The notes below the pieces were generated by a model. It did not search any database. It was not told the origin of the DNA and saw only the letters and a list, made by a program, of their open reading frames with translations. The translations under genes were made by a program, and so were the position numbers. A stretch of DNA of 39,032 nucleotides from Chloroflexota bacterium (GTDB taxonomy: Bacteria; Chloroflexota; Dehalococcoidia; UBA2247; RBG-13-53-26), in NCBI GenBank assembly GCA_016876035.1, contig VGOE01000019.1:1-39032 (forward strand), in the 5' to 3' direction. The stretch's first letter is position 1, and each line of letters begins with the position of its first letter. Shown in pieces: positions 4,295-37,218 of this stretch.

Positions 4295-6256
4295 CTATCC
4301 GCGAGCTTCAGCTATCAGGCCTCTCGACTGAAGGTCGTCGGCAATTTCTTTCAACCCCAGCTCTTCCAAAGAGGCCCTGGTTTGCAGACCGGTGGACACA
4401 TCCCATCGCCGCAGCGCATAGTATTCATCTTTCATCCGCTCGAATTTCTCCCTCTCTACGACGGCTCCTTTTCGTGATATGACTTCCCCGTCTTTACCGG
4501 GCACCAGGCAACCCGGGTTGATAAAGTCGGACTGGAGAGGCTCGGAAAAGCAGCGGTCAGAAAGGTCATCGAAACCTCTGCCCCGCTGCCCCTCCCGTAC
4601 CAGTATGGCACGCTGTAAATTGAAAACTCGCTCGCCCATCCTGTAAAGCCCTTTCTCATCAATATCCCACCCCGTTACAGCAGCCAGAAGCTTGCTTTCC
4701 AGGGTGGGGTCACCCACGTGGTCCTCGGTGTTCTGAAGGTCAATGATGGGCCAAAGATAATCACAAAGAATGAGACAGTCCTTGGCAGTCTCTCGTTCCT
4801 GGATCATCTTTGCTGCCATGTCTTTACCCTCGTATGTAGAGAAGTCACCAGCCACTTCGCTTCCCCAGAACCGCTTGGCTATGGCGCGTACTACCTCAGA
4901 AGAAGCTACACCCCCAGGCTCTTTCTTGACCCATGATACCCATTTCGCTACAAGCGTGCTCACTTCGTGAAGCTGTGGCATCGCCAGTCTGGGCTCCATA
5001 GCATGGAAAAGCGCATTGGTGATGTACAGCCTCGGACTGTAAATCTCAGTGTACCCCGGCATCGCTATGTGCACTGCACTCTTGAGCTGTTCTTTGGCTT
5101 CTCGGCCTATGGAGTTGGCAGCCTCGTCCACTCCTTTGGCCAGGGCTTCTCCGAAGCCCTGACGCAATGAAACCTTCCTGACCAGAGTCTCTATGAACTC
5201 CACGCTCCCCGTCTTTGACACGGGGATGCCCGTATTCTCGTCAGTCAGGATACCAGCTTTGTAGCAATGGTGAAGCCAGCTAATCATTCGGTCGATGACT
5301 TTAGAATCAAGCCCATAGGTGTCCACAAGCTTCGTGGCATGGAAGGGCACATCATTCCATTGACCGTAATAGGATACTGACCACGGTTGATAGAATAGGC
5401 ACGAGGCGCAGAAGAACTTCCCTGTCATTCCATCATCGGCTTCATAGAGTCGTCTGGAGCATCCCCTACAGCCATAACAGGGATCCATCTTCTTCATCCT
5501 GGTGCGGCTCAGGCTGGGCACGACTTCCGTGGAAAACCGGTAGTTCGAGTGTCGAAGGATAATTGGCACTAGCCCTCGATAATGCTGGGTCAACTCTCGT
5601 AGCCGCTCGGGTCGAGCCACCGCCACCCCCTTACCCGCGCCCTCAACAACGATGGCCTTCAGCTTCTTGGATCCCATCACAGCGCCCATACCCGCCGAGC
5701 CACTGGCGTCATTGTCCGCCAGAAGAGTTGCCATTCTCACTAGGTTCTCGCCTGCGGGGCCGATGGCCACTACCCTGGCTGATTGTCCTAGTTCACCCTT
5801 AAGGGCTTCTCTGGCCTCGATAGCCCCTTTTCCCCACAGGGCAGAAGCATCCCTAAGCTCAACCATATCACGGCGGATGAGAAGGTAGACCGGTTTTTCC
5901 GACTTGCCTTGGACGACGACGGCATCGTATCCGGCGAATTTCAGCTCAGCCCCCCACCTACCCCCCAGGTTGCCATAGGAGAACTGCTGGCGGGCTGGGG
6001 CGGGCGATTTGCCGCAGACCTGCCACCGCGAACCGGCAATCGCAGGCAATCCAGCCAGGGGACCCGTGGCAAATATCAACCTGTTCTCGGGGTCGAAGGC
6101 ATTAGTCTCCGGCGGCACTTCATCCCAATATATCTTGGCACCAATGCCTCTGCCGCCCAGAAAATCGGTGGCATAGTCAATCGTCGGAACTGTGGTGACC
6201 CTTCCCGAAGACAAGTCTACTCTCAGAATATTTCCCGCATATCCAAAGGTTGGCAT
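4295..6256 (-). CDS. Aldehyde ferredoxin oxidoreductase family protein (AOR1)
   Basis: This 653-residue tungsten/molybdenum bis-pterin enzyme belongs to the family that oxidises aldehydes to acids with ferredoxin or runs the reverse reaction. It has the N-terminal AOR domain (GYAGNILRVDLSSG at 5-18, FLGGRGIGAKIYWDE near 32-46), a pterin-site segment DNDASGSAGM (181-190) and the Fe-S ligands C260, C263, C266 and C498. Canonical AORs have Cys-x2-Cys-x3-Cys. Here one residue is missing, giving Cys-x2-Cys-x2-Cys, unlike the otherwise similar AOR2 at 35215-37218. The start at 6256 has AAGGGG upstream. It is the last gene of a minus-strand run (DUF6125-like pair, SDR), separated from the SDR gene by 272 bases of repeat-bearing DNA. 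BamB-type benzoyl-CoA reductase subunits share this fold, so an acyl-CoA or aromatic substrate is possible. Confidence 0.9.
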   Translation of the reverse strand: MPTFGYAGNILRVDLSSGRVTTVPTIDYATDFLGGRGIGAKIYWDEVPPETNAFDPENRLIFATGPLAGLPAIAGSRWQVCGKSPAPARQQFSYGNLGGRWGAELKFAGYDAVVVQGKSEKPVYLLIRRDMVELRDASALWGKGAIEAREALKGELGQSARVVAIGPAGENLVRMATLLADNDASGSAGMGAVMGSKKLKAIVVEGAGKGVAVARPERLRELTQHYRGLVPIILRHSNYRFSTEVVPSLSRTRMKKMDPCYGCRGCSRRLYEADDGMTGKFFCASCLFYQPWSVSYYGQWNDVPFHATKLVDTYGLDSKVIDRMISWLHHCYKAGILTDENTGIPVSKTGSVEFIETLVRKVSLRQGFGEALAKGVDEAANSIGREAKEQLKSAVHIAMPGYTEIYSPRLYITNALFHAMEPRLAMPQLHEVSTLVAKWVSWVKKEPGGVASSEVVRAIAKRFWGSEVAGDFSTYEGKDMAAKMIQERETAKDCLILCDYLWPIIDLQNTEDHVGDPTLESKLLAAVTGWDIDEKGLYRMGERVFNLQRAILVREGQRGRGFDDLSDRCFSEPLQSDFINPGCLVPGKDGEVISRKGAVVEREKFERMKDEYYALRRWDVSTGLQTRASLEELGLKEIADDLQSRGLIAEARG

Positions 6257-9698: not shown

Positions 9699-11654
9699 AT
9701 GAAAGAGCCGATGAAGCTGGAATATCTCTTCAAGCCAATCAACATCAAGAGCATGAAACTGAAGAACCGCATAGTCATGGCCCCCATGGGGACACTCATG
9801 GCCAATGAGGATGGCTCGCCCAGTGACAGAGTGCTGGACTACTATGAGGCCAGGGCCGTCGGCGGCGCTGGATTCATCATGGTGGAGGACACCGTTATCC
9901 ATCCCTCCATCGCCTTTGGCATGGGCGAGATCGCCATAACTTCCATGTACGACGACAGGTTTATCCCAGCCTGGAAACGGTTCACCGACCATCTTCATGC
10001 GGTCGGAGCCAAGCTTTCCATCCAGGTCTGGCACCCTGGCCGGCAAGCACCGGCAATCGGCCCGGACAGGCCACCCTGGGCTCCGTCGCTGCCGCCATGT
10101 CCTTGCCCCTACTGCCAGGATGTGCCCCATGTGATGTCCATTTCAGAAATCCAGGAGATAATCGACTCTTTCGCTCAGGCTGCCCGCCGCGTCCAGGAGT
10201 CAGGGTTTGACGCTGTAGAGATCGGTGGCGCTCATGGGTATCTCATCGCTCAGTTTATGTCATCTTACAGCAACAAGCGAACGGACAAGTACGGCGGAGA
10301 CCTCATCAGCCGGATGCGTTTCGCCCTGGAAGTCCTGGAGGCCTCACGGGCAAAGGTAGGGCCAGATTTCCCTATCATCTTTCGCTTCAGTGCCGATGAG
10401 CGGGTTACTGAAGGCCGTAATCTGGACGAATCCCTGGCCATCGCTCCGTGGCTCGTCGCCGCCGGGGCGGACTGCCTCCATGTCTCAACAGGGGTCTATG
10501 TCAACGCAGAGACCTACATAGTTGCCCCTGCGGCTGTCCCCAAGGGGCACAACGTGTATGCCGCCGAACAAATCAAGAAGGTGGTAAACGTGCCTGTCAT
10601 AGCCTCCGGCAGGCTAAATGATCCCTTGATGGCCGACCAGGTGATAGCCCAGGGCAAGGCCGACCTGGTGGCTATCGGGCGGGGCCTTTACGCCGACCCG
10701 GAGTGGCCGAACAAGGTGGCCGCCGGGCGGTTTGAGGACATTCGATGGTGTACCAGTTGCCTCGACGGGTGCATCCACAGCCTGAGGACAACCTTTGCTA
10801 CTAAGTGCCAGGTGAACCCGGAGGTAGGCCGCGAGAGACAGATGGCCATCACCCCGGCCGCTCGTACTAAGCGCGTCCTGGTGGTCGGTGGTGGGCCTGC
10901 CGGGATGGAGGCCGCCCGCGTGGCCGCCCTCAGAGGGCACCATGTTACGCTCTACGAGAAAGAAAAGGAGCTTGGCGGGCAGTTTCGCATCGCCTCCATC
11001 CCACCAACAAAGCAGGAGATCATACCCTTCCTCAAATATCAGGCGCGGCAGTTGAGCCAGACCGGGGTGAAGGTGGTGCTGGGGCAGGAGGCCACAGCGG
11101 CCACTGTGAAAGATCTGAAGCCCGAAGTGGTGATCATTGCTACCGGCAGCAAGCCCCTCATCCCTGATATCCTGGGGGCAGACGGCCAGAATGTGGTTAC
11201 CGCCCACGATGTCCTCACCTTTAGGGTGACTACTGGCCGAAAGGTGCTCGTGGCAGGGGGCGGCATGGTGGGCTGTGAGACCGCTGACCTTCTGGCGTCC
11301 TATGGACGGGAAGTCACCATCATCGAGATGCTGCCTGAGCTTGCCGCTGACATGGCTCATGGCCCAAGGTATTTTCTGCTCCAGCGTCTGGCCGAGCAGA
11401 AGGTAAAGGCGGTCACATCAGCCACCATTCAGAGGATAACCAGCGACGGAGTAGTCATCAACCATGATGGCAAAGAGGAGACCATCAGAGGAATGGATAC
11501 CATCGTCCTGGCTATGGGGGCGGTGTCCGTCAACCGGTTGGCCAGGGAGATCGAGGGCAAGGTCAGCCAGGTGCATGTCATTGGTGACGCCGAGACTCCA
11601 GGCAAGGCCATGGAAGCCATCGCTGCCGGCGCACAGATAGGCAGGGCTATCTAG
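9699..11654 (+). CDS. NADH:flavin oxidoreductase / Fe-S ene-reductase (2,4-dienoyl-CoA reductase type)
   Basis: This 651-residue enzyme is of the FadH/BaiCD/BaiH class, which reduces activated C=C bonds in enoyl-CoAs or oxo-steroids. The N-terminal FMN TIM barrel (about 8-345) has the typical LKNRIVMAPMG start and HGYLIAQFMS plus KYGGD motifs. The 4Fe-4S ligands are C351, C354, C358 and C370 (CTSCLDGC then KC). The C-terminal half has an FAD Rossmann motif GGGPAGMEAA near 397 and a second dinucleotide motif GGGMVGCETA near 518. Length and order are those of the full family. AAAGGAG lies upstream of the ATG at 9699, and an in-frame ATG at 9711 is an alternative. It sits between the EthD and hydrolase genes in one operon. 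Electrons should pass NAD(P)H-FAD-FeS-FMN. The substrate is not determinable. Confidence 0.92.
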   Translation: MKEPMKLEYLFKPINIKSMKLKNRIVMAPMGTLMANEDGSPSDRVLDYYEARAVGGAGFIMVEDTVIHPSIAFGMGEIAITSMYDDRFIPAWKRFTDHLHAVGAKLSIQVWHPGRQAPAIGPDRPPWAPSLPPCPCPYCQDVPHVMSISEIQEIIDSFAQAARRVQESGFDAVEIGGAHGYLIAQFMSSYSNKRTDKYGGDLISRMRFALEVLEASRAKVGPDFPIIFRFSADERVTEGRNLDESLAIAPWLVAAGADCLHVSTGVYVNAETYIVAPAAVPKGHNVYAAEQIKKVVNVPVIASGRLNDPLMADQVIAQGKADLVAIGRGLYADPEWPNKVAAGRFEDIRWCTSCLDGCIHSLRTTFATKCQVNPEVGRERQMAITPAARTKRVLVVGGGPAGMEAARVAALRGHHVTLYEKEKELGGQFRIASIPPTKQEIIPFLKYQARQLSQTGVKVVLGQEATAATVKDLKPEVVIIATGSKPLIPDILGADGQNVVTAHDVLTFRVTTGRKVLVAGGGMVGCETADLLASYGREVTIIEMLPELAADMAHGPRYFLLQRLAEQKVKAVTSATIQRITSDGVVINHDGKEETIRGMDTIVLAMGAVSVNRLAREIEGKVSQVHVIGDAETPGKAMEAIAAGAQIGRAI

Positions 11655-17557: not shown

Positions 17558-18232
17558 ATGTGGGATTCTGAGAAGAAAACGGTGCTTCAGGCGGCCCGAT
17601 TGTTGGCAGAAAAGGGCCTGGTGGTGGGCACTTCTGGAAATGTCAGCCTGCGCTTCAGGGAGACCAGTGGACGGGAGCTGGTGGTCATTACCCCCACCGG
17701 GCGCTATTACAATACGCTGGGCCTCGATGACCTGGTAGTGGTCGATCTTGACGGGGAGCGCATCGACGGGAGGCACGCTCCCTCTGAAGAGAAGCTGCTT
17801 CACATCGGGATTTACAAAGCGCGCCAGAAGCTGAACGCCGTTATCCACTCCCACCCCGTTTTTAGCAGTGCCGTTGCCGCTGCTGGCCTGGATATCCCTC
17901 CCTTTCTCGATGATCAGGTGGTCTACCTTGGCGGCGAGATAAAAGTGGCCGCCTATGCTCTGCCTGGCAGCCTGGAACTGGCCAAAAATGCGATTTCCGC
18001 GCTGGGGCCACGAAATGCTGTCCTTCTAGCCAATCATGGCGCTCTCAGCGTGGGAAAAGACATGCAGGAGGCCTTTGCCATTTGCGAGTTAATGGAAAAG
18101 ACAGCCAGGACATATATCTTCGCCCTGAGCCTGGGGAGAGTTAACCCCTTGCCTGCTGAGGCAATCGAGATGGAGACGGCCTTTTTCCAATCGCACCACG
18201 GCGACGCCGAGGGGAAGCAGACGCCGGGATGA
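17558..18232 (+). CDS. Class II aldolase/adducin family protein (FucA-like)
   Basis: This 224-residue zinc-dependent aldolase is of the L-fuculose-1-phosphate / L-ribulose-5-phosphate type. Visible landmarks are GTSGNVSLR (26-34, phosphate binding), ITPTG (47-51), SEEKLLH (catalytic Glu equivalent near 74), the metal motif IHSHP (His pair near 94) and ANHGA (third His near 155). The size is normal for the family. AAGGAG lies upstream of the ATG at 17558. It is followed 73 bases later by an LsrF-like class I aldolase, so the pair may act in one sugar-phosphate or short-chain keto-sugar pathway, releasing an aldehyde plus dihydroxyacetone phosphate or an acyl unit. 5-deoxysugar salvage uses a class II aldolase and is one option, but no partner kinase or isomerase is seen. 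Confidence 0.88.
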   Translation: MWDSEKKTVLQAARLLAEKGLVVGTSGNVSLRFRETSGRELVVITPTGRYYNTLGLDDLVVVDLDGERIDGRHAPSEEKLLHIGIYKARQKLNAVIHSHPVFSSAVAAAGLDIPPFLDDQVVYLGGEIKVAAYALPGSLELAKNAISALGPRNAVLLANHGALSVGKDMQEAFAICELMEKTARTYIFALSLGRVNPLPAEAIEMETAFFQSHHGDAEGKQTPG

Positions 18233-18305
18233 CGGGAGCGGGTTAAGAGGCTTTCCAACCTAGCTCAACCACGAAAGGCAAAAAGACTACAGGAGGACTA
18301 CCACG

Positions 18306-19103
18306 ATGGAATGGGGAATGGCAAACCGTATGGCGCAACTAATTCAATCGGATGGACATGCCCTCTTCTTGCCAGTAGACCACGGATACTTCCAGGGACC
18401 CACCACAAGACTGGAAGTACCGCGCCAGACTCTCGAGCCGCTCCTACCTTATGCTGACGCTGTTTTCATTACCAGGGGGGTGCTTCGCTCCTCGGTAGAC
18501 CCCGACAGCGCCAAGCCGATCATCCTCCGCGTATCCGGTGGCGCTAGCGTCGTCGGGAAAGACTTGGCCAACGAAGGAATCACCACCTCCATGGAGGAGG
18601 CCATCCGCCTTAATGCCTGCGCAGTGGGCATTTCCATTTTCGTGGGCAGCGACTACGAGCGCCAGTCGCTGCTGAACCTCTCTAAGCTCGTTGACGAAGG
18701 TGAGAAATACGGCATCCCCGTAATGGCCGTTACCGCCGTGGGCAAGGAACTGGCGAAACGGGACGCCCGCTATCTGGCCCTGGCCTCCCGTATTGGGGCA
18801 GAGCTAGGCGCGCGCGTGGTGAAGACCTACTACTGCGAAGACGGCTTTGAGAAGGTGGTAAGGGGCTGCCCTGTCCCCGTGGTTATGGCCGGTGGGCCTA
18901 AGACCGATTCGGAGTTCGAGGTGTTCCAGTTTGTCTACGATGGCATGCAGAAAGGCGCTGTAGGCGTGAATCTGGGAAGGAATATCTGGCAAAACGATTT
19001 CCCTGTGGGGATGATCAAGGGCATACGGGCCATCATTCACCAAAACGCCACTCCCAAAGAGGCTCAGGAGATATATAATAGTATCAAAAGCCAAGGGACA
19101 TAG
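18306..19103 (+). CDS. Class I aldolase of the DeoC/LsrF family (LsrF-like)
   Basis: This 265-residue TIM-barrel enzyme begins MEWGMANRMAQL and has DHGYFQGPT at 25-33, a stretch close to that of LsrF (3-hydroxy-5-phosphonooxypentane-2,4-dione thiolase). It also resembles archaeal-type class I fructose-bisphosphate aldolases and aminodideoxyheptulosonate synthase. The likely Schiff-base lysine is K173 (ARVVKTYY). A phosphate-binding GGPK follows at 196-199. AGGAGG lies nine bases before the ATG at 18306. It is probably co-transcribed with the class II aldolase gene. No other lsr genes (transporter, kinase, regulator) are present, so an autoinducer-2 role is doubtful, and I leave the symbol blank. 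Confidence 0.85.
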   Translation: MEWGMANRMAQLIQSDGHALFLPVDHGYFQGPTTRLEVPRQTLEPLLPYADAVFITRGVLRSSVDPDSAKPIILRVSGGASVVGKDLANEGITTSMEEAIRLNACAVGISIFVGSDYERQSLLNLSKLVDEGEKYGIPVMAVTAVGKELAKRDARYLALASRIGAELGARVVKTYYCEDGFEKVVRGCPVPVVMAGGPKTDSEFEVFQFVYDGMQKGAVGVNLGRNIWQNDFPVGMIKGIRAIIHQNATPKEAQEIYNSIKSQGT

Positions 19104-20888: not shown

Positions 20889-21006
20889 CCACTGCTACAC
20901 TGGCAGCTACGCAACCTCACCACCGATGAGTGTCTCATAGGAATAATCAGGCGCAATTTCCTCTCTGAACACTGCCACAATTGAGATCGTTTATCAACGC
21001 CTTCGT

Positions 21007-21036
21007 GTCATTCTGAGCGAAGCGAAGAATCTCTGA
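21007..21036. repeat. GTCATTCTGAGCG-type short repeat, copy A
   Basis: GTCATTCTGAGCGAAGCGAA with GAATCTCTGA following. Related copies lie at 29369-29397 and 37979-38005. Together with the sequence up to about 21080 (ATTCTTC...TTCAGAACGACA) it forms an imperfect hairpin. The gap 20889-21132 has no gene apart from the start region of VOC1. Confidence 0.7.
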
Positions 21037-21128: not shown

Positions 21129-21217
21129 CGCCATGCAGAACCCCAATGAGGTAAAGGCAGACGGCAAAAGAACCAGCACCCAGAGTCGAGCTACCCCCAG
21201 TAGACCAGATAGGCATC

Positions 21218-21640
21218 GTGGTCCAGGACATAGACCAGGTCATGGAGTATTACGCCTCCGTTTTCGGCTGGGGGCCTTTCCATCTTCGCGAGGTGGAGTT
21301 GAAAGGATTCACCTATCGCCATCAGCCCTCCGACTCCCGCCTGAAAGTGGCCTACCTCCAGTCCGGCCCTGTTCAGATTGAACTAATCCAGGTCATGGAA
21401 GGTGAAACGCCCCACAGTGACTTTCTGCGGCAAAAGGGAGAGGGGCTGCAGCACCTTTGTTTCCGGGTGGACGACTTCGCCGCCACCGCCACCGAACTGG
21501 CCAAGGAGGGCATAGAGCCCGTGTGGCATCTCCCCGGTGCGCCGGTATTCGCTTATGTCAACAGCGACCGCATTGGCGGCGTCATGTTCGAGCTAGTTGA
21601 GAAAGGACAGATGGGAGAGCAGGAAAAAGATGAGGCATGA
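21218..21640 (+). CDS. VOC-family protein 1 (glyoxalase/methylmalonyl-CoA epimerase-like), N-terminus uncertain
   Basis: This vicinal-oxygen-chelate protein has 140 residues from a GTG at 21218. Homology with VOC2 starts earlier: the same frame upstream encodes ELPPVDQIGIVV, but a stop at 21152 precedes it and no start codon lies between. An ATG at 21133 (MQNPNEVKADGK) is in the neighbouring frame. Removing one A from the AAAA at 21166-21169 would join the two into a normal VOC start, so a frameshift or base-call error is likely. Conserved features are GEGLQHLCF (metal His) and GVMFELV (metal Glu). The usual first-strand His is Gln, as in VOC2 and VOC3. It is the first gene of the molybdopterin operon. 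The role is probably isomerase, epimerase or lyase on the same substrate. Confidence 0.8.
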   Translation: MVQDIDQVMEYYASVFGWGPFHLREVELKGFTYRHQPSDSRLKVAYLQSGPVQIELIQVMEGETPHSDFLRQKGEGLQHLCFRVDDFAATATELAKEGIEPVWHLPGAPVFAYVNSDRIGGVMFELVEKGQMGEQEKDEA

Positions 21641-23840
21641 CGGAAGCCACCATCCAGCCCAAACAGAACAAGTCATATATTCTATCCATTCAAGCCATTG
21701 CGGAGGAGCTTGCCTCCTGAAGATATACGTCAAGGATGGCAGAGTAACCAGGATGGAGACAGACGATCAGGAAGAACCGCAATTCCGGGCCTGCGCCAAA
21801 GGGCGGGCCTACCGCCAGAGGACGTATGCGCCTGACCGCCTATTGCATCCGATGAAAAGGACGGGAGAAAGAGGGGAAGGCAGATTTGAGCCAATCTCTT
21901 GGGACGAGGCCATGGACACCCTGGCCGGGGAGCTGAACAGGGTCAGAGAGACCTATGGCCCACAAGCCATCCTGTTCAAATGGTCGGGAGGAGATACAGC
22001 CAGACTGCACAGCGCCACCTGCCATTACCGGCTGCTTAACATGATCGGAGGCTGCTCCGAGGTTTGGGGCACCTTCTCTTTCGAAGGCGGCCTCTTTGCC
22101 GAACTGGCTACCTACGGCACTGTAGATACAGGCAACACCAGGGACGATTTCCTCAGCTCCCGGCTGATCATCATGTGGGGTTGGAACCCCTCTTCCACCA
22201 TCCAGAACACCAACACCGCCTGGTATCTGGCCCAGGCTAAAGAGGCTGGGATCAGGATTGTCTCTATCGATCCCAGATACACAGACTCCAACGCCACTTT
22301 CTCTGACGAGTGGATTCCCATTATCCCTGGCACTGATGCCGCCCTGGCCATCGCCATGGCCTACCTGATAGTGAAGGAAAACCTCCAGGACCAGAAGTTT
22401 CTGGACAGATACACTATTGGTTTCGATCAATTCAGACACTACGTCCTGGGAATCGAGGATGGCACGCCTAAGACCCCAGCCTGGGCTGAAGCTATTACCG
22501 GTGTGCCAGCGCCCACGATAGAGCGCCTGGCCAGGGAATATGCCACCACCAAGCCAGCAGCACTGATCGCCGGCATCGGCCCGGGGCGCACCGCCTACGG
22601 TGAGCAATACCACCGGGCAGCCATGACTCTGGCAGCCATGACAGGTAACGTTGGCATCCCCGGAGGTAGTTCGGGAGGGCGGTCATGGCCCACCGCCGGG
22701 CCAACCGCTTACTTCAGCCTGGGCCGTGGCATGAGGACGCCTGCCAACCCAGTGGAGTCTAACGCCCTACCCCGCCGCAACTCCCTGGCCAGTTTTGGCA
22801 TCGCCATGAGGAGAGGCCAGATCAATGTGGCCAAGATGTCGGATGCTATTCTCCAAGGGAAAGCGGGCGGTTATCCCGCTGATTACAAACTGCTTTACCT
22901 GGTAGATACCGATTATCCCAATCAGTACCTCAACGTCAACAAGGCAGTCCAGGCCCTGAAGAAGCTCGAATTCGTGGTGGCCTTTGAGCAGTTCATGACA
23001 CCGGCGGCCAGGTTCGCTGACCTCCTGCTGCCCACCTGCACCACGCTGGAAAAAAACGATATCGCCCTTGACGGAGCCACTGGCTTCTATGGGTATATGA
23101 ATAAGGTTGTCGATCCCATAGGCGAGTCCAGGTCTCATCTTCAAATCTGCATGGAACTGGCGAACAAGCTGGGTATCCCTGACTACAACGACAAGACCGA
23201 GGACGAATGGCTGCGGGAGATAGTGAAGGGGAGCAATGACATCGCCGACTATGACACCTTCAAGAGTAACGGGATTCACAAGCTGAGACTCCCTGAGCCT
23301 TATGTAGCTTTCCAGCAACAGATCGAAGACCCGGCAAACAACCCCTTCCCCACCCCCAGCGGCAAGATCGAGATCTATTCGCAGCGGCTGGCGGACATGA
23401 ACGACCCCCTCATCCCACCCATCCCCCAGTACATCCCAACCTGGGAAAGCCGCCGTGACCCGCTGGCCCACAAGTACCCGCTCCAGCTCATTACCACTCA
23501 TATCATCAGACGAGCGCACTCCCAGTACGACAACATACCCTGGCTAAGGGAACTTCAAACCCAGGCAGTATCTATCAACTCCGCCGATGCCCAGACCAGA
23601 GGGATCAAGGATGGCGATAGGGTCAGGGTTTTCAATGATAGGGGCGAGACCATTCTTCCTGCCAGTGTGACAGAAAGGATGATACCGGGCGTAGTCGACA
23701 TCCCTCAGGGCGCCTGGTATAAGCCCGACGAGAAAGGCGTTGACACGGGAGGGTGCTGCAACGTCCTGACAAAGGACGAACACTCGCCAGGGGGAGCCTA
23801 CTGCTCCAATACGACCCTGGTACAGGTGGAGAAAGCCTGA
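21630..23840 (+). CDS. Molybdopterin oxidoreductase catalytic subunit 1 (MopB1, DMSO-reductase family)
   Basis: This subunit has about 736 residues with the full MopB layout: N-terminal Fe-S site, bis-MGD domains and a C-terminal dinucleotide-binding domain (GDRVRVFNDRG). Cluster ligands are H20, C24, C28 and C55. The first position, Cys in MopB2, is His, as in NarG. By alignment with E. coli DmsA the metal ligand should be S150 (GTFSFEGG). No Tat signal is present, so it is cytoplasmic. The start is uncertain. ATG 21630 keeps the frame, but ATG 21637 makes a classic ATGA overlap with the VOC1 stop and encodes MTEATIQPKQ before leaving frame. One added A at AAA 21661-21663 would fuse that start to the main frame. 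It is closely similar to MopB2. The substrate is unknown. Confidence 0.9.
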   Translation: MRHDGSHHPAQTEQVIYSIHSSHCGGACLLKIYVKDGRVTRMETDDQEEPQFRACAKGRAYRQRTYAPDRLLHPMKRTGERGEGRFEPISWDEAMDTLAGELNRVRETYGPQAILFKWSGGDTARLHSATCHYRLLNMIGGCSEVWGTFSFEGGLFAELATYGTVDTGNTRDDFLSSRLIIMWGWNPSSTIQNTNTAWYLAQAKEAGIRIVSIDPRYTDSNATFSDEWIPIIPGTDAALAIAMAYLIVKENLQDQKFLDRYTIGFDQFRHYVLGIEDGTPKTPAWAEAITGVPAPTIERLAREYATTKPAALIAGIGPGRTAYGEQYHRAAMTLAAMTGNVGIPGGSSGGRSWPTAGPTAYFSLGRGMRTPANPVESNALPRRNSLASFGIAMRRGQINVAKMSDAILQGKAGGYPADYKLLYLVDTDYPNQYLNVNKAVQALKKLEFVVAFEQFMTPAARFADLLLPTCTTLEKNDIALDGATGFYGYMNKVVDPIGESRSHLQICMELANKLGIPDYNDKTEDEWLREIVKGSNDIADYDTFKSNGIHKLRLPEPYVAFQQQIEDPANNPFPTPSGKIEIYSQRLADMNDPLIPPIPQYIPTWESRRDPLAHKYPLQLITTHIIRRAHSQYDNIPWLRELQTQAVSINSADAQTRGIKDGDRVRVFNDRGETILPASVTERMIPGVVDIPQGAWYKPDEKGVDTGGCCNVLTKDEHSPGGAYCSNTTLVQVEKA

Positions 23841-23853
23841 AGGAGGACAAAGG

Positions 23854-24312
23854 ATGACGAATGCCGGAAAGGTGGTGCTACCACCAGTGAGCCAGGTTGG
23901 GATTGTAGTCAGGGACATCGAAAGGACGGCGCAATACTACACCTCAACCTTTGGCATAGGCCCTTTCACCATCATCGATGTCGATATGGATGGCGTGATC
24001 TTGCGGGACAAGCCCATCAGGCTCAAGATGAAGGCGGCCTTTGCCCAATCGGGGCCGCTCCAGATTGAGCTTATCCAGTCGGTGGAGGGGGAGAACCTTT
24101 ATACCGAGTTCCTAGCCAGCAAAGGGGAAGGGCTACACCATCTGGGTTTTCAGGTTGATGACATGGAAGCTGTGCTGGCTGATTTGGCCAGGAAAGGGAT
24201 CAAGCCGGTATTTCATCATAATTACGGCTTCGGGGCCTTTGCCTATCTGAACACTGACAAGATTGGCGGTGTGATGTTCGAGCTACTCTGGACAAAGAAG
24301 CCGGAGAGGTAG
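23854..24312 (+). CDS. VOC-family protein 2
   Basis: This 152-residue single-domain protein is of the methylmalonyl-CoA epimerase/glyoxalase type and a close paralogue of VOC1. It carries LPPVSQVGIVVRDIERTAQY at the start and FGIGPF in the first motif. LQIELIQSVEG, GEGLHHLGF (metal His) and GVMFELL (metal Glu) follow. The first-strand metal His is replaced by Gln. GGAGG lies seven bases before the ATG at 23854, 13 bases after the MopB1 stop, so it is in the same transcript. The paired repeats VOC-MopB suggest that the VOC proteins process the substrate or product of the Mo/W enzyme, for example by epimerising a CoA ester or isomerising an enol. No measured function is implied. Confidence 0.88.
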   Translation: MTNAGKVVLPPVSQVGIVVRDIERTAQYYTSTFGIGPFTIIDVDMDGVILRDKPIRLKMKAAFAQSGPLQIELIQSVEGENLYTEFLASKGEGLHHLGFQVDDMEAVLADLARKGIKPVFHHNYGFGAFAYLNTDKIGGVMFELLWTKKPER

Positions 24313-24418
24313 GAAACAAACCACCATCGAGCTCTGTTTACGATGTCATTGTGTATTCTTTGGCAGCTTAGTCAGCCCAGTGACGCACTTGTGCCAACTC
24401 AACTAAAGGAGGACGGAA

Positions 24419-24928
24419 ATGGCACCACAGCTACCCTCGACAGTGAAGGTCTCAGAGCTCTTTCAGGTTGCTGTTGTCGTCCGCGACCTTGAGGAGAGCA
24501 TGAAACGCTACGAGAGCCTCTTAGGCATCAGCTCATGGATGATCTTTGAAGTCAGTCCTTCCCTCGTTCAAATGACCTATCACGGGAAACCATCCCAGCA
24601 CAGCTTCAAGGCCGCCTTCACCATGTTGGGATCCCTCATGATCGAATTGCTCCAGCCCCTCGAGGGAAGGGGTATTTACCGTGATTTCCTGGACAAACAT
24701 GGCGAAGGTCTGCATCACCTGGGGCACGTCCGGGTGGATAACTTAGATGCTGCTGTCCAGGCACTGGAGAAGGCTGGCTTCCCCTGTGTAGGGTCTGGGG
24801 AGACTTTGGGAGGCCCCGGCGAAAACTATCACAAGTGGGCTTATGTAGATACGACTGCGGCTCTTGGCTACATCATCGAACTGTCCACCGGCAGTGATCC
24901 AAGAGCTATGTTCGCCACACAGACGTAG
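24419..24928 (+). CDS. VOC-family protein 3
   Basis: This 169-residue VOC protein is more distant from VOC1 and VOC2. It has FQVAVVVRDLEESMKRYE at the first strand (Gln again in place of His), LMIELLQPLEG, GEGLHHLGHVRVDN (metal His) and YIIELS (metal Glu). A longer loop around GSGETLGGPGENYHKW distinguishes it. AAAGGAGG lies upstream of the ATG at 24419. The preceding gap of 106 bases has no clear terminator. It is followed 23 bases later by MopB2, giving a second VOC-MopB pair. A role parallel to VOC2 but on a different intermediate is the simplest reading. Confidence 0.88.
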   Translation: MAPQLPSTVKVSELFQVAVVVRDLEESMKRYESLLGISSWMIFEVSPSLVQMTYHGKPSQHSFKAAFTMLGSLMIELLQPLEGRGIYRDFLDKHGEGLHHLGHVRVDNLDAAVQALEKAGFPCVGSGETLGGPGENYHKWAYVDTTAALGYIIELSTGSDPRAMFATQT

Positions 24929-24951
24929 CTGTGATACGAAGGAGGTAAATC

Positions 24952-27180
24952 ATGGTTGTCAACGACAAGACTCTGGCTGGTGAGGAACAGATAATCTACA
25001 CTGGCTGCAATCAGCACTGCGGCGGAAGCTGCTTGCTGCGAGTGCACGTGAAGGATGGGGTTATCACCCGGATCGAGACAGATGACGGAGAAGAGCCACA
25101 GGTCAGGGCCTGCATGAAAGGCCGTGCCCAGCGTCAACGGGTGTATGCCCCCGACCGCATCACCCATCCCCTTAAGCGCGTGGGGGAAAGAGGGGACGGA
25201 AAATTCGAGCGGATATCCTGGGACGAGGCTCTGGAGACCGTGGCCGGGGACATCAGGCGAATTCGGGATACCTACGGACCGGCCTCGATTCTGTTTCTTG
25301 TCTCCGCGGGTGACATTTGCTCCATCAATATGGGCATGCCTATCTATCGGTGCCTTTGCATGGCCGGAGGCTGTTCCCTTACCTGGGCCATCTGGTCCTT
25401 CTGGGGAGCCATTGCCGCGGAGCACGTCACCTTTGGCCGCACCTTCAGGCAGAACACCCGGAACGACATCCTCAACTCCAAGTATATCATCCTGTGGGGC
25501 CTCAATCCGTCAAACTCAGTGCATGACAACAACTTCTGCTGGTATCTAGCCCAGGCCAGGGACGCCGGCATCAAGATCGTGGCCATCGATCCCCGGTATA
25601 CGGATACCGCCGCCAACTTTGCCGACGAATGGATACCCATTATCCCTGGCACCGATACGGCCATGCTTATGGCCATGGCCTACGTCATCATTACCGAGAA
25701 CCTGCACGACCAGCAGTTCCTCAACAAATACACGATCGGGTTTGGCAAATTCAAGGACTATGTGCTGGGCATCGAGGATAGCATCCCCAAGACCCCGGAG
25801 TGGGCCGAGCCTATTACCAGCGTCCCAGCGGCCACCATAGCGCGGCTGGCCAGAGAGTACGCCACTGCCAAGCCGGCATGCCTCTTGGCCGGGATTGTGC
25901 CGGGGCGGACTGCCTACGGTGAGCAGTATCACCGCGCCACTCACACCCTCTGCGCCATGACCGGGAACACGGGCAAACACGGCGGAGGGGCGGGTGACAT
26001 CGTTCATACCGGAATGCCGGTAGCGTCTCTCTACGGAGGGGTGCTTCACCATATACCCAATCCGGTGGAGGGTGATAGGCCTCCCGCGGAGCACTACTTC
26101 CCACCAAAGATCAATTATATCCTGCAAGGCCCTCGAGGCAGCGTAAACCTTCACGAAGTAGCCGACGCCATTCTTGAAGGCAAGTCCGGGGGCTATCCGG
26201 CGGACTACAAGATGGCCATAACCTGCAACACCAACTACCTCAACCAGGATGCTAACATCAACAAGACGGTGCGGGCTTTCAAGGCCTTGGAGTCCGTAGT
26301 CGTGCTGGAGCAGTTCATCAGCCCCACGGCCCGCTACGCCGACATCGTCCTTCCTACCACCACCTTCTTGGAAAGGGACGATTTCACCCAGGGATCGGAC
26401 CAGCCTTACTTCGTCTTCCAGCGTAAGTGCATCGAGCCGATAGGGGAATGCAAGCCTCATTACTTCATAGCCGCTGAGTTGGCCAAGAAATTGGGGATCG
26501 ACAATTTCGATACCGTGACGTATGGGGAGCGCATAGAGCAAATGCCGAAGAAGAACACCCTACGCTTCCCCCTCACGCTGGAGATGTTCCGCGAGAAGGG
26601 CGTTATGAAGGTCCCGCTCCCCGAGCCCTGGGTGCGTTTCAAGGAAGAGATAGAAGACCCGGAAAAGCACCCCTTCCCCACGCCTTCGGGAAAGATCGAA
26701 ATCTATAGCGAGCGGCTGGCCGAACTGAATGACCCCCTCATCCCCCCTATCCCCAAGTGGATCGAGCCCTGGGAGAGCCGGAATGACCCCCTGACCAAGA
26801 AGTACCCTCTGCAACTGATCAGCACTCACCCCAAGCGGCGTGCTCATACCCAAATGGAGACCATACCCTGGCTCAGGGAACTGGTCCCGCAAGAAGCACT
26901 GATGAACACCATCGACGCCAAGGCAAGGGGAATCCGTACCGGCGACCGCGTCCGCGTCTTCAACGAACGGGGACAAATGATTATCCCAGCACGGGTCAGT
27001 CAAAGGATCATGCCCGGGGTGGTCGATATTCCCGAGGGAGCGTGGTATGCCCCGGATGAGAATGGGGTGGACCGGGGTGGCAATCCGAACGTCCTGACGA
27101 AAGACAAACCCTCGCCTTTGGGAGCGTTTACCGCTTCCAGCAATGCTCTGGTTCAGATTGAGAAGGCGCAGGAGGACTAG
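24952..27180 (+). CDS. Molybdopterin oxidoreductase catalytic subunit 2 (MopB2, DMSO-reductase family)
   Basis: This 742-residue tandem paralogue of MopB1 has a standard Cys4 Fe-S site: C19, C23, C27 and C54. The Mo/W ligand by alignment with DmsA is S149 (AIWSFWGA). Shared blocks with MopB1 include AIDPRYTDTAANFADEW, PIIPGTD, REYATAKPA, PGRTAYGEQYHRA, HPFPTPSGKIEIYS and a C-terminal GVVDIPEGAWY. There is no Tat signal or twin arginine at the N-terminus. GAAGGAGG lies six bases before the ATG at 24952. The electron-transfer gene starts three bases after its stop, so those two proteins are almost surely partners. MopB1 may share the same partner or form a heterodimer. DMSO-reductase, acetylene-hydratase and transhydroxylase relatives all share this fold, so the reaction is open. 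Confidence 0.93.
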   Translation: MVVNDKTLAGEEQIIYTGCNQHCGGSCLLRVHVKDGVITRIETDDGEEPQVRACMKGRAQRQRVYAPDRITHPLKRVGERGDGKFERISWDEALETVAGDIRRIRDTYGPASILFLVSAGDICSINMGMPIYRCLCMAGGCSLTWAIWSFWGAIAAEHVTFGRTFRQNTRNDILNSKYIILWGLNPSNSVHDNNFCWYLAQARDAGIKIVAIDPRYTDTAANFADEWIPIIPGTDTAMLMAMAYVIITENLHDQQFLNKYTIGFGKFKDYVLGIEDSIPKTPEWAEPITSVPAATIARLAREYATAKPACLLAGIVPGRTAYGEQYHRATHTLCAMTGNTGKHGGGAGDIVHTGMPVASLYGGVLHHIPNPVEGDRPPAEHYFPPKINYILQGPRGSVNLHEVADAILEGKSGGYPADYKMAITCNTNYLNQDANINKTVRAFKALESVVVLEQFISPTARYADIVLPTTTFLERDDFTQGSDQPYFVFQRKCIEPIGECKPHYFIAAELAKKLGIDNFDTVTYGERIEQMPKKNTLRFPLTLEMFREKGVMKVPLPEPWVRFKEEIEDPEKHPFPTPSGKIEIYSERLAELNDPLIPPIPKWIEPWESRNDPLTKKYPLQLISTHPKRRAHTQMETIPWLRELVPQEALMNTIDAKARGIRTGDRVRVFNERGQMIIPARVSQRIMPGVVDIPEGAWYAPDENGVDRGGNPNVLTKDKPSPLGAFTASSNALVQIEKAQED

Positions 27181-27183
27181 ACA

Positions 27184-29202
27184 ATGCAGCAGATAGGATT
27201 TTTCTACGACCAAACACGATGCATGGAATGTTTTGCTTGCTGCGTTGCCTGCAAGGACTGGCACGACATACCGGCGGGCCCTGCCCACTGGAAGCGGATC
27301 ATCGCTATCGAGGAGGGTAAGTGGCCTCATCTGTCGCTGGCACACCTAGCCATCAACTGCTTCCACTGCGCGGAGCCAGTCTGCATGGACGTCTGCCCTG
27401 CCAAGGCCATCACCAAGAGGGAAGAAGACGGGGTGATGGTCGTGGATCGAAATAAGTGCCAGGACGAATCCCACTGCGGCGTCATGACCATCGAGTCCTT
27501 GGCCCTCTTCGCCGGTGCTGAAATTCAGGCACCCTGCAAACTCGCCTGCCCGGCCCACCTCGATGTCCAGGGATACGTTGCCCTCATAGCCAATGGGAGA
27601 TATAAAGAGGCCCTTGATCTGATCAGGGAGAAAATGCCCCTTCCCTCTGTCTGCGGACGGGTGTGCAAAGCTCCCTGTGAAACGGACTGCCAGAGGCAGA
27701 AATTGGATGAGCCTGTGGCTATCTCTGCCCTCAAGCGCTTCGTCACCGACTTTGCGCCCTATGAGGTTCCCCAACCCATTCCCCACACCAAGGCAGAGAA
27801 AATCGCCATCATCGGCTCAGGCCCGGCGGGGCTGTCCGCAGCCTATGACCTGGTCAGGATGGGTTATGGCGTCACGGTCTTCGAAGCCCTGCCTGTGGCC
27901 GGCGGGATGCTGGCTGCAGGCGTCCCCCAGTATCGCCTGCCTAAGGAAGTGCTACAGAGAGACATCGACTATATCAGGGGCCTGGGCGTGGAGATCAAAC
28001 TGAACACGCCCGTCGGTCACGGCCTGAGCCTTGGCGATCTGAGGCAGCAGGGCTACAACGCCGTCTTCATAGCTACCGGTGCGCATAAGGGCCAGACGCT
28101 ACCCGTACCCGGCGCCGACCTGGATGGCGTGCTCGTGGGCACTTCGTTTCTCAGAGACGTTAATCTGGGCAGGAAGGTGAGGGTCGGCCAGAGAGTTCTG
28201 GTGGTTGGCGGTGGCCACGTGGCCGTTGATTGTGCCCGCAGCGCCTGGCGGCTGGGGGCGCGTGATGTCCAGATGGCCTGCTTGGAGTGCCGTGAGGAAA
28301 TGCCTGCCACTGGCCCCGAACTTGAGGCCACGGCTGAAGAAGGGATTGTCATTCATCCTTCGGTCACCGTCACGAAGGTGCTGGGCAACCAGGGCAAGGT
28401 GGCTGGTGTTGAGTGTCTCAGCCTGAGCCACATGGAGTTCGATGACGAGGGCCAGTTGCGTATGGACGTCATCCCGGGCACCGAGCATACCCTGGCAACG
28501 GACACGGTCATTTGGGCTATTGGTCAGGCACCCGATTTGAGCTTTCTGGGCGGGACTGACATAGAAGTCTCGAAGCGTGGTGCTATCATCGTGGATCCTG
28601 ACACGTTTGAGACCAACATTGAGGGTGTCTTCGCCGGTGGGGACGTTATCGGAGGCCAGGAAGCCAGTGTCATTCATTGCATCGCCGCCGGCCAGAAAGC
28701 AGCAGTGCATATCGACCGCTGTCTCAAGGGAGAGGTAATCAAGGATAGTCGTCGCCCACGATCAGTGAATGCCTCGGATATCGAGGTATCCATTCCGTCG
28801 AGTGTGAGGAAGGCGAAGCAGCGCAAAATGCGCCAGTTTCCAGTGGCCAAGAGGTCTGGCAGTTTCCACGAAACCGCCCTCGGTTTCAGCCAAGCCCAAG
28901 CCATAGCCGAAGCCCAGCGGTGCCTCCGCTGCGCGGGACGGCTTTGTCAGGAGGTCTGCCCCTATGAAGCTCCTCAATTTGGAGCCGAGGATCGGGCCAA
29001 GATGCAGATGTGCGACTTCTGCCTGGACAAACTAACACTGAACGAGAAGCCTATCTGTGTGGCTGCCTGCCCGGTGAGAGCGCTGGATGCCGGCCCTCTC
29101 CAAGAACTCAAGGCAAAGTATGCTGCTAAGGAAGAGGCCAGACATTTCAGAAGATCGAGAATAGCTCCTTCAGTCGTGTTCAAGCCCAAGTTGAAGGGAT
29201 AG
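27184..29202 (+). CDS. DmsB-type ferredoxin subunit with an inserted GltD-like FAD/NAD(P) module
   Basis: This 672-residue protein has a nested architecture. Residues 1-92 are the first half of a DmsB-like four-cluster subunit: C13, C16, C19, C23; C59, C62, C67, C71; then VVDRNKC. Residues about 112-580 are a GltD/DPYD-N-like module with its own Cys set (C118, C122, C157, C161, C165, C169), FAD motif GSGPAG (211-216), NAD(P) motif GGGHVA (342-347) and a second FAD motif GVFAGGD (481-487). Residues 580-672 resume DmsB: C580, C583, C588, C592 (CPYEAPQF) and C610, C613, C625, C629 (CPVRALDAGPLQELKAKY). It should pass electrons between NAD(P)H and MopB2 in the cytoplasm. AGGAGG ends the upstream gene just before the ATG at 27184. 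Domain identity is firm. The direction of electron flow is not known. Confidence 0.92.
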   Translation: MQQIGFFYDQTRCMECFACCVACKDWHDIPAGPAHWKRIIAIEEGKWPHLSLAHLAINCFHCAEPVCMDVCPAKAITKREEDGVMVVDRNKCQDESHCGVMTIESLALFAGAEIQAPCKLACPAHLDVQGYVALIANGRYKEALDLIREKMPLPSVCGRVCKAPCETDCQRQKLDEPVAISALKRFVTDFAPYEVPQPIPHTKAEKIAIIGSGPAGLSAAYDLVRMGYGVTVFEALPVAGGMLAAGVPQYRLPKEVLQRDIDYIRGLGVEIKLNTPVGHGLSLGDLRQQGYNAVFIATGAHKGQTLPVPGADLDGVLVGTSFLRDVNLGRKVRVGQRVLVVGGGHVAVDCARSAWRLGARDVQMACLECREEMPATGPELEATAEEGIVIHPSVTVTKVLGNQGKVAGVECLSLSHMEFDDEGQLRMDVIPGTEHTLATDTVIWAIGQAPDLSFLGGTDIEVSKRGAIIVDPDTFETNIEGVFAGGDVIGGQEASVIHCIAAGQKAAVHIDRCLKGEVIKDSRRPRSVNASDIEVSIPSSVRKAKQRKMRQFPVAKRSGSFHETALGFSQAQAIAEAQRCLRCAGRLCQEVCPYEAPQFGAEDRAKMQMCDFCLDKLTLNEKPICVAACPVRALDAGPLQELKAKYAAKEEARHFRRSRIAPSVVFKPKLKG

Positions 29203-35214: not shown

Positions 35215-37218
35215 TCAGTGATGCAGCCTTTGTACCTCGCCTTGAGAAGGACGGCCAGAGGCTATGAGGCCCCTCTGCTCTAGATCACGGGCTACCTCCT
35301 CCAGTCCCAACCCCTCCAGGTTAGCCCTGGTTTGCAGGCCCGTGGCCACATCCCACCCCCTGATCTGGTAGTATTCGTCTTTCGCCTTTTCGAAGGCTTT
35401 TCTATCGACTACTGCGCCCTTGAGGGAGACAACCTCCCCATCTTTCCCCGGCACCACACACTCAGGGTCGGCATGGTCGTACTCTAAGGGCAACGTATGA
35501 CACGAATCGGGCAGCTTATCGTAATCTCTTCCCCGGTGACCTTCCCTGACAAGTATGGCCCTTTGCAGATTAAACACCCTTTCACCTATCCTGTAAAGCC
35601 CCTCCTCATCCACCCCCTTCCCCGTAACAGCCGACAACAGCTTGCTTTCCAGGGTGGGATCGCCCACATGGTCCTCGGTATGTTCCAGGTCTGTCAGAGG
35701 CCACAGAAAGTCACAAAGAATAAGGCATTCCTTGGCGTACTGTCGGTCCTGAATCATCTTTGCTGCCAGGGCTTTCCCGTCCAGGGTAGAGAAATCGGCT
35801 GCCAGGTCGCTTCCCCAGAATCTCCTGGCAATGGCGCGGAATACATCGGTGGTAACATAGCTCGGGAGACCGCAAGCCATGGCTGCCCATTTGGCTAGGA
35901 GGAAACTCACTTCATGGAGGTGCTGCATAGGTAATCTCGGCTCCATAGCGTATGGAAAGGCGTTGGTCACATAGAGTCTCGGCCCATACCACGGATATAG
36001 CCCGGGCTCGGACTGGTAGCCGGCCAGCTCAGCTTGCTCTTTCGCCCCTGGCCCTAGCGAATCTGCCGCCTTGAACACCCCTTGAGCCAGCAATTCCCCC
36101 AGGCCATCCCGGAAAGCGATCTTTCTCACCAGGGTCTCAATGAACTCCAGGCTACCCATTTTCGATATAGGGATGCCACTATTTTCATCAGTCAGAATGC
36201 CAGCTTCATAGCACCCATGGAGCCAGCCCAGCATCAAGTCCACGGAGAAAATGTCAATCCCATAGTTATCGCAAAGCTTGGTAGCATAGAAGGGGACGTC
36301 GTTGGGATTATCGTTCCAGTCCCCATAGTATCGGTCAGACCAGGGCTGATAAAACAGGGCTGCTCCACAAAAGAATTTCCCCTTCTGGCCATCCGCTGCC
36401 TGGTAGATCTTCCTGGCGCAACGGCCAATACAGCCATAGCAGGGGTCCTTCTTCATTTCAGGGCCGGGTACCAGTTTGAATTCCTGATGTGTATTTCTCA
36501 CCCACCGGCTCATGTATTCCCACTGGCCCCTCCCCACTTCACGATAGTAGGCCGTGAGCTCTTTCAATCTGTGCGGCTGGGCTACCTCCACTTTCTTCCC
36601 AGCACCGATCACCACGACGGCCTTCAGTTTCTTGGCCCCCATGGTTGCCCCTAAACCTCCCGCGCCAGCCGCATCGTTGTCAGCTAACAGCGAAGCTATG
36701 GCAACCCCGTTCTCACCAGCAGGCCCCGTAGCTACCACCCTGGCTGAGCTTCCCAGCTCACTTTTGAGAGCTTCCCTGGACTCAATCGCGCCCTTGCCCC
36801 ATAAAGGTGAGGCATCCCTTAATTCAGCGATCTCGTCATTAAGGAAGAGGTAGACCGGCTTCTCCGATTTGCCTTGAACCACGATGCCGTCGTAACCGGC
36901 AAACTTCAGCTCAGCTCCCCATCTACCTCCTAGATTGCAGTAGGAGAACCGATCCGGGGCGGAAGGGGATTTCCCGCAGACCTGCCATCGCGAGCCAGCA
37001 ATTACCGGAAGCCCCCCCAGCGGCCCGGTGATGAATACTAGCCTGTTTTCTGCGTCGGAGGCTCTGACTTCAGGCGGGACCTCGTCCCAGTATATCTTGG
37101 CAGCGATACCCCTCCCACCCAGGAATTTGTCAGCATACTCCGATGTCGCAGCTTCAGCTATGCTCCTTGAGGACAAATCCACCCGTAGGATCTTCCCAGC
37201 ATACCCGAATGCCGGCAT
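35215..37218 (-). CDS. Aldehyde ferredoxin oxidoreductase family protein (AOR2)
   Basis: This 667-residue paralogue of AOR1 shares long blocks (FGYAGKILRVDLSS, KIYWDEVPPE, SRWQVCGKSP, NLGGRWGAELKFAGYD, DPTLESKLL). Fe-S ligands are canonical: C260, C263, C267 (CYGCIGRC) and C502 (ILCDFLWP; C498 is nearby). The pterin-site segment is DNDAAGAGGLG (181-191). The start at 37218 has GGAAAG upstream. The protein is expected in the cytoplasm with a tungsten bis-pterin centre and electron exchange with ferredoxin. Its operon partners are a SnoaL-like protein upstream and a lipocalin-like protein and APH-SCP2 fusion downstream, quite different from those of AOR1, so the two likely act at different steps or on different substrates. 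An acyl-CoA-reducing BamB-like role is an alternative. Confidence 0.92.
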   Translation of the reverse strand: MPAFGYAGKILRVDLSSRSIAEAATSEYADKFLGGRGIAAKIYWDEVPPEVRASDAENRLVFITGPLGGLPVIAGSRWQVCGKSPSAPDRFSYCNLGGRWGAELKFAGYDGIVVQGKSEKPVYLFLNDEIAELRDASPLWGKGAIESREALKSELGSSARVVATGPAGENGVAIASLLADNDAAGAGGLGATMGAKKLKAVVVIGAGKKVEVAQPHRLKELTAYYREVGRGQWEYMSRWVRNTHQEFKLVPGPEMKKDPCYGCIGRCARKIYQAADGQKGKFFCGAALFYQPWSDRYYGDWNDNPNDVPFYATKLCDNYGIDIFSVDLMLGWLHGCYEAGILTDENSGIPISKMGSLEFIETLVRKIAFRDGLGELLAQGVFKAADSLGPGAKEQAELAGYQSEPGLYPWYGPRLYVTNAFPYAMEPRLPMQHLHEVSFLLAKWAAMACGLPSYVTTDVFRAIARRFWGSDLAADFSTLDGKALAAKMIQDRQYAKECLILCDFLWPLTDLEHTEDHVGDPTLESKLLSAVTGKGVDEEGLYRIGERVFNLQRAILVREGHRGRDYDKLPDSCHTLPLEYDHADPECVVPGKDGEVVSLKGAVVDRKAFEKAKDEYYQIRGWDVATGLQTRANLEGLGLEEVARDLEQRGLIASGRPSQGEVQRLHH

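Follow-up and report, generated by a model that had tools for sequence, protein, structure and literature searches.

A six-gene locus encoding VOC proteins, molybdoenzymes, and an electron-transfer protein

We analyzed a 39,032-nucleotide stretch of Chloroflexota DNA (the window), which is contig C19 of a 2.53-Mb genome estimated to be 97.7% complete. Same-class relatives carry the 16S sequence AAGGCGGTTTTCTAGGTTGTCAC, which we take to be a signature specific to Dehalococcoides 16S, and because they bear it we assigned the class as Dehalococcoidia; the source genome itself lacks this sequence. Pfam and NCBIfam profiles identified six genes at about 21161–29202 in the order VOC-MopB-VOC-VOC-MopB-[DmsB::GltD] (Table 1), in agreement with a preliminary description of six consecutive plus-strand genes of VOC, MopB, and NAD(P)-linked type. 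Glyoxalase_4 was detected in three of the proteins, Molybdopterin, Molydop_binding, and Fe4S4 domains in two, and Fer4_20, Pyr_redox_2, and pieces of DmsB in the last. The tight spacing previously remarked upon is borne out by an 8-bp overlap between VOC1 and MopB1 followed by gaps of 13, 106, 23, and 3 bp. Shine-Dalgarno-like sequences precede MopB1, VOC2, VOC3, MopB2, and DmsB::GltD, and given these and the short gaps, the genes are expected to constitute one operon. Within the six genes, we found no excess of terminators.

Table 1. Genes of the operon, with window coordinates and the basis for their assignment
Feature	Position	Strand	Basis
VOC1, Glyoxalase_4-type	21161–21640	+	PF13669 E=9e-20; Q/E/H/E ligand set
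MopB1, DmsA-like molybdoenzyme, about 735 aa	21633–23840	+	PF00384/PF01568/PF04879
VOC2, Glyoxalase_4-type	23854–24312	+	PF13669 E=4e-21
VOC3, more divergent VOC protein	24419–24928	+	PF13669 E=8e-20; alignment and tree
MopB2, DmsA-like molybdoenzyme, 742 aa	24952–27180	+	Pfam/NCBIfam, ligand residues, tree
DmsB::GltD, split four-cluster ferredoxin with NAD(P)/FAD GltD module	27184–29202	+	Pfam/NCBIfam, alignments

The first gene had been assigned an ATG start at 21133, a codon that lies in another frame than VOC1. No in-frame ATG is available to VOC1, whose reading frame opens only after a TAA stop at 21152–21154; within it, an ACG at 21161 aligns with the initiator Met (ATG) of the VOCs of relatives and lies 9 nt downstream of a Shine-Dalgarno-like GAGG (21148–21151). 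From these sequence features, ACG 21161 appears to be the initiator, as a rare start codon or as the product of a point change or assembly error. A frameshift at this position was rejected in view of the same-frame alignment and the upstream GAGG, and GTG 21218, the start chosen by the ORF finder, is disfavored because a protein beginning there would lose its Gln ligand. For MopB1, the most likely start is ATG 21633, within the 3′ end of VOC1, rather than TTG 21597.

Elsewhere in the window, two AOR-family paralogues occupy the minus strand, one at each end of the region (4295–6256 and 35215–37218). A class II aldolase gene followed by an LsrF-like thiolase gene lies upstream of the operon (17558–19103), the latter scoring 374 bits and passing the NCBIfam equivalog cut-off of 297. 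An intergenic stretch at 21000–21035, ATTCTGAGCGAAGCGAAGAATCTC, has the look of a dispersed repeat.

The VOC proteins share an invariant metal-ligand set

VOC1 is 53–61% identical to the MopB-adjacent VOCs of relatives, and VOC3 shares 31–36% identity with VOC1 and VOC2. In an alignment of 13 VOC proteins, twelve from loci of the MopB branch described below and one from a second locus in the source genome (L022), Gln14, Glu72, His96, and Glu143 are invariant. All three window VOCs have Gln at the first metal position, as had been noted. We dropped the suggestion that this substitution for His is a special feature, as Q/E/H/E is typical across the wider VOC subfamily and occurs also in VOCs encoded away from MopB. 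The ligands of human glyoxalase I, which likewise has Gln in first place, resemble this set.

All three proteins scored under every NCBIfam equivalog cut-off. Against the methylmalonyl-CoA epimerase model TIGR03081 (cut-off 114.95 bits) they scored 58.1, 53.9, and 54.8; against the glyoxalase I model TIGR00068 (cut-off 120), VOC1 scored 19.1 bits and the other two were not listed. An AlphaFold model of VOC2 (pLDDT 92.5) found PDB 3gm5 as its best match, followed by methylmalonyl-CoA epimerases. The position equivalent to Glu43 of the Streptomyces methylmalonyl-CoA epimerase is mostly Gly in the operon VOC family. The VOC genes have dN/dS values of about 0.14–0.23, which indicates purifying selection.

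MopB1 and MopB2 belong to a predicted cytoplasmic branch near DmsA

The source genome contains 20 matches to PF00384, eight of which fall in one branch comprising MopB1, MopB2, and six paralogues with 48–61% identity to them. Throughout this clade, a Ser occupies the molybdenum-ligand column, aligned with that of DmsA, YnfE, YnfF, TorA, and BisC. In MopB1 and its orthologues, His replaces the first cysteine of the FS0 cluster site (window about 21690–21720), as it does in NarG in the same alignment, and MopB2 keeps the four-Cys site. MopB1 and its orthologue at locus L064 show a dN/dS of about 0.1.

Our phylogeny placed the branch near DmsA/YnfE/YnfF (support 93/88), within a group that also holds TorA and BisC of E. 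coli (100/100). Scores against the DmsA/YnfE model TIGR02166 were 698.9 bits for MopB1 and 646.5 for MopB2, both under the curated cut-off of 777.7; for comparison, the L064 orthologue scored 682.3 and E. coli DmsA and YnfE 1440.6 and 1401.3. The preliminary description had asked whether the enzymes belong to a characterized clade, and in our tests they fell within none of the reference groups (DmsA/YnfE-F, TorA/BisC, and NapA/FdhF). To call them a wholly unknown lineage would overstate the case, given this proximity and the DMSO-reductase-like molybdoenzymes already reported from Dehalococcoidia (PMC4959651, PMC7506110).

A motif scan found no Tat motif at the N-termini of MopB1 and MopB2 or elsewhere in the branch, while E. 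coli DmsA, YnfE, YnfF, and TorA all showed it, upholding the earlier description of tandem paralogues without Tat signals. Nor did we detect a DmsC/NrfD-like anchor among neighbors in the window or at VOC-linked loci; the one six-transmembrane neighbor tested is MarC. These sequence features point to a cytoplasmic branch near DmsA/YnfEF.

Among solved structures, the window MopBs scored about 292–309 bits against DMSO/TMAO reductases, 182–207 against transhydroxylase, and 151–169 against acetylene hydratase (about half the DMSO/TMAO reductase values). We also considered membership among the catechol dehydroxylases, which these scores do not support; the MopB tree was built without dehydroxylase sequences.

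A flavin module is inserted within the DmsB-type ferredoxin

The last gene had been described as a fusion of DmsB and GltD. A fusion is present, but its layout is not end to end: the GltD module (residues ~114–565) sits inside the four-cluster ferredoxin, and DmsB relatives that stand alone align to residues 3–98 and ~583–669, on either side of it. In keeping with this, the DmsB model TIGR02951 matched in two stretches split by GltD, with 144.8 bits against a cut-off of 214.1, and the protein is not the contiguous four-cluster ferredoxin that the model describes. The AlphaFold model is good over the GltD core, which resembles NfnABC and StnABC, and poor over the DmsB halves, so that it does not confirm the predicted reassembled ferredoxin fold.

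The NAD(P) motif, CLECREEMP, is acidic where NADPH-type modules have RR, which suggests NADH in the source genome; the copy in a relative (G053) has an NADPH-type motif. The fusion is real but rare, with full-length matches limited to 3 of the 294 class genomes, distributed over three families. The parts in the window read most naturally as a soluble NAD(P)-linked system, as first proposed. The GltD module supports such a link here, but the fusion is not a constant feature: at most of the VOC-linked loci, DmsB is an ordinary stand-alone protein, and another electron partner must therefore be possible.

DmsB::GltD could work in either direction. In an oxidative reading, the molybdenum site would use water to hydroxylate a substrate of phenolic or cyclic type and pass the electrons to NAD+. 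Ser-ligated cytoplasmic MopBs with phenolic substrates exist, namely resorcinol hydroxylase and transhydroxylase (PMC10100899), and the latter, at 207 bits, ranks among the closest structures to MopB1 after the best-scoring ones. The sequences are nonetheless closer to DMSO/TMAO reductases, in a comparison that included the transhydroxylase family by score alone, and we regard this oxidative direction as quite unlikely.

VOC-MopB linkage recurs across families

To define linkage, we required a same-strand VOC gene no more than 1.5 kb away. By this measure, 14 of the 76 MopB ORFs of the clade (a count that includes fragments) have a VOC of the same family nearby, in ten genomes belonging to three families (f1, f23, and f64). 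A fifteenth candidate, L139, was dropped because its VOC (H/Q/A/E) is unrelated. Chance would link about 1.4% of MopBs, based on 20 Glyoxalase_4 matches in 2.53 Mb, giving a binomial P of about 2e-12 when shared ancestry is ignored. Of 294 class genomes, 41 have the VOC type, 41 the MopB branch, and 29 both (hypergeometric 3e-21, common ancestry likewise ignored). VOC genes are conserved next to particular MopB orthologue groups, and with these MopBs also outside the reference clades, the refuting condition set in the preliminary description did not hold. Every MopB1 orthologue with at least 74% identity is VOC-linked (6/6), and 62 of the 76 clade MopBs have no adjacent VOC, which places the VOC outside the core molybdoenzyme.

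Gene order at these loci differs among families: DmsB-VOC-MopB-VOC-MopB at L060 and L064; VOC-DmsB-MopB at L092–L094; another MopB and an old yellow enzyme-like (OYE) gene, then DmsB-VOC-MopB-MaoC-MaoC, at L095; and, in a fourth family, MopB-DmsB::GltD-VOC-OYE at L073. With order reshuffled in family f23, frozen synteny alone does not account for the linkage. Members of this VOC family are also found away from MopB, and an unrelated Cys-type MopB adjoins Q/E/H/E VOCs both in the source genome (L022) and in G149 (L096). In genome G002 (L071, about 10735–10790, minus strand), all that is left of MopB1 is a C-terminal scar (ICSNTTLVQV, 84% DNA identity to L060 over 45 bp) between two kept VOCs. 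Unless the contig is misassembled, this genome has retained VOC without MopB1.

These patterns bear on whether the VOCs, without catalytic activity, serve the molybdoenzyme as accessory subunits or help to assemble it. Such a role would suit small genes wedged between dmsB and mopB in a conserved position, and the overlap of VOC1 with MopB1. We consider it very unlikely, however, in light of the invariance of all four metal-ligand positions, the persistence of VOC after MopB1 deletion in G002, the occurrence of the VOC family without MopB or beside an unrelated type of it, and the lack of a VOC at most clade MopBs.

A scan of genome contigs recovered four distant relatives only, two of which, mapped on their short contigs, showed no VOC, and a wider search of the phylum outside the class returned only distant MopBs that have DmsB and no VOC on the stretches examined. 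At L143, L145, L149, L152, L155, and L163, other MopBs of the branch have DmsB, an aldehyde ferredoxin oxidoreductase (AOR) gene, or both after them, which makes a further recurrent pairing. Separately, a MopB frame with an in-frame TGA fused to GltD was observed on contig C20 (L009, 4683–9422), with a VOC gene just downstream; by sequence, this MopB is a probable selenocysteine formate dehydrogenase.

Gene context points to possible organic-acid catabolism

BaiCD-like OYE flavoenzymes adjoin L060, L066, L071, L073, and L095; one f23 locus includes thiolase, ChsH2-type, and MaoC genes, and branched-chain-type ABC uptake genes lie upstream at L073. We infer that these neighbors point to catabolism of organic acids via CoA thioesters. 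Aromatic breakdown has been proposed for Dehalococcoidia, as have DMSO and TMAO as substrates of their DMSO-reductase-like enzymes (PMC4959651).

The latter proposal raises the prospect that MopB1 and MopB2 are ordinary cytoplasmic S- or N-oxide reductases (of DMSO, TMAO, or methionine sulphoxide) and the VOCs unrelated detoxification cargo. DmsA/YnfE is indeed their best-matching family, and BisC, which is cytoplasmic and likewise has no Tat motif, is a sulphoxide reductase with a Ser ligand. Yet the MopBs score under the DmsA-family cut-off and have neither anchor nor Tat motif, eight branch paralogues together with OYE, MaoC, and thiolase linkage fit diverse organics better, and the VOC linkage is far above chance and survives changes in gene order. 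We judge this explanation unlikely.

Discussion

Judged by gene content, conserved linkage, ligand residues, electron-transfer architecture, and the lack of Tat motif and anchor, the operon is a real, conserved cytoplasmic variant of DmsA/DmsB with VOCs as recurrent partners, for which the chemistry we propose is a reasoned guess. Since the pairing recurs in relatives, the operon probably represents a real, still undescribed form of anaerobic processing of organic molecules. Our literature search for a VOC-molybdopterin partnership in Chloroflexi or Dehalococcoidia found none.

The best explanation, which we hold tentatively, is cytoplasmic NAD(P)H-driven Mo/W oxygen-atom chemistry on an organic metabolite, with the VOCs shifting protons in the same pathway. 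NAD(P)H, probably NADH in the source genome, would reduce the FAD of the GltD insert, and electrons would pass through the DmsB-type [4Fe-4S] clusters and FS0 to a Ser-held bis-MGD molybdenum (or tungsten) site. This site would remove an oxygen atom from a soluble organic metabolite or, in reverse, add one. The VOCs, as putative metal-dependent enzymes of the lyase, isomerase, or epimerase type with a Gln/Glu/His/Glu site, may catalyze enolisation or a proton shift next to a carbonyl or thioester, acting on what the molybdoenzyme consumes or produces. The probable pathway is anaerobic breakdown of cyclic or aromatic acids via CoA thioesters, and the two MopBs and three VOCs could be paralogues that handle related substrates or act in successive steps. 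A bolder form of this proposal, which we think somewhat unlikely, is that the VOCs and the cytoplasmic DmsA-like enzyme are obligately joined in a two-step machine that takes oxygen off organic molecules or moves it on them, NADH-powered via the ferredoxin-inserted flavin module, possibly with Nfn-like bifurcation; it would be catabolic, belong to anaerobic Dehalococcoidia, and have no characterized counterpart.

The usual interpretation of DMSO-reductase-like genes in Dehalococcoidia is respiration of DMSO or TMAO. Should a large cytoplasmic branch act on organics together with VOC, OYE, and CoA-pathway enzymes, that interpretation would wrongly predict sulphur respiration from these genomes and would have overlooked a source of organic-matter breakdown under anaerobic conditions. 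The conserved VOC-MopB pair offers a compact, testable unit, and GltD inside DmsB would be an unusual, direct NAD(P) supply for a DmsA-type enzyme.

Among known systems, E. coli DmsABC and YnfEFGH (DMSO/selenate reductases) share with the operon a DmsA-type subunit, the molybdenum-ligand Ser, the FS0 cluster, and a DmsB partner, and YnfE and YnfF are tandem MopB paralogues too. They differ in having Tat signals and a membrane anchor and in having no VOC, the operon being the opposite on each point. The nearest solved relatives of the VOCs, methylmalonyl-CoA epimerase and PDB 3gm5, have the same single-domain VOC fold, but the ligands of the epimerase are His/Gln/His/Glu rather than Q/E/H/E. 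We know of no VOC or GltD partner for resorcinol hydroxylase (RhL) or pyrogallol-phloroglucinol transhydroxylase. Both have a Ser-ligated MopB in the cytoplasm with soluble organic substrates (PMC10100899), as we propose for the operon, although transhydroxylase is less similar to the window MopBs than DMSO/TMAO reductases are. The catechol dehydroxylases of Eggerthella and Gordonibacter, which dehydroxylate organics, resemble the branch in their expanded bis-MGD paralogues; their clade is closest to acetylene hydratase (PMC7028382), whereas the window MopBs score about twice as high to DMSO/TMAO reductases. Finally, NfnABC, StnABC, and other GltD-type flavoproteins contain the same NAD(P)/FAD and Fe-S module as the fusion, which, unlike them, has it interrupting the DmsB ferredoxin of a DmsA-type enzyme.
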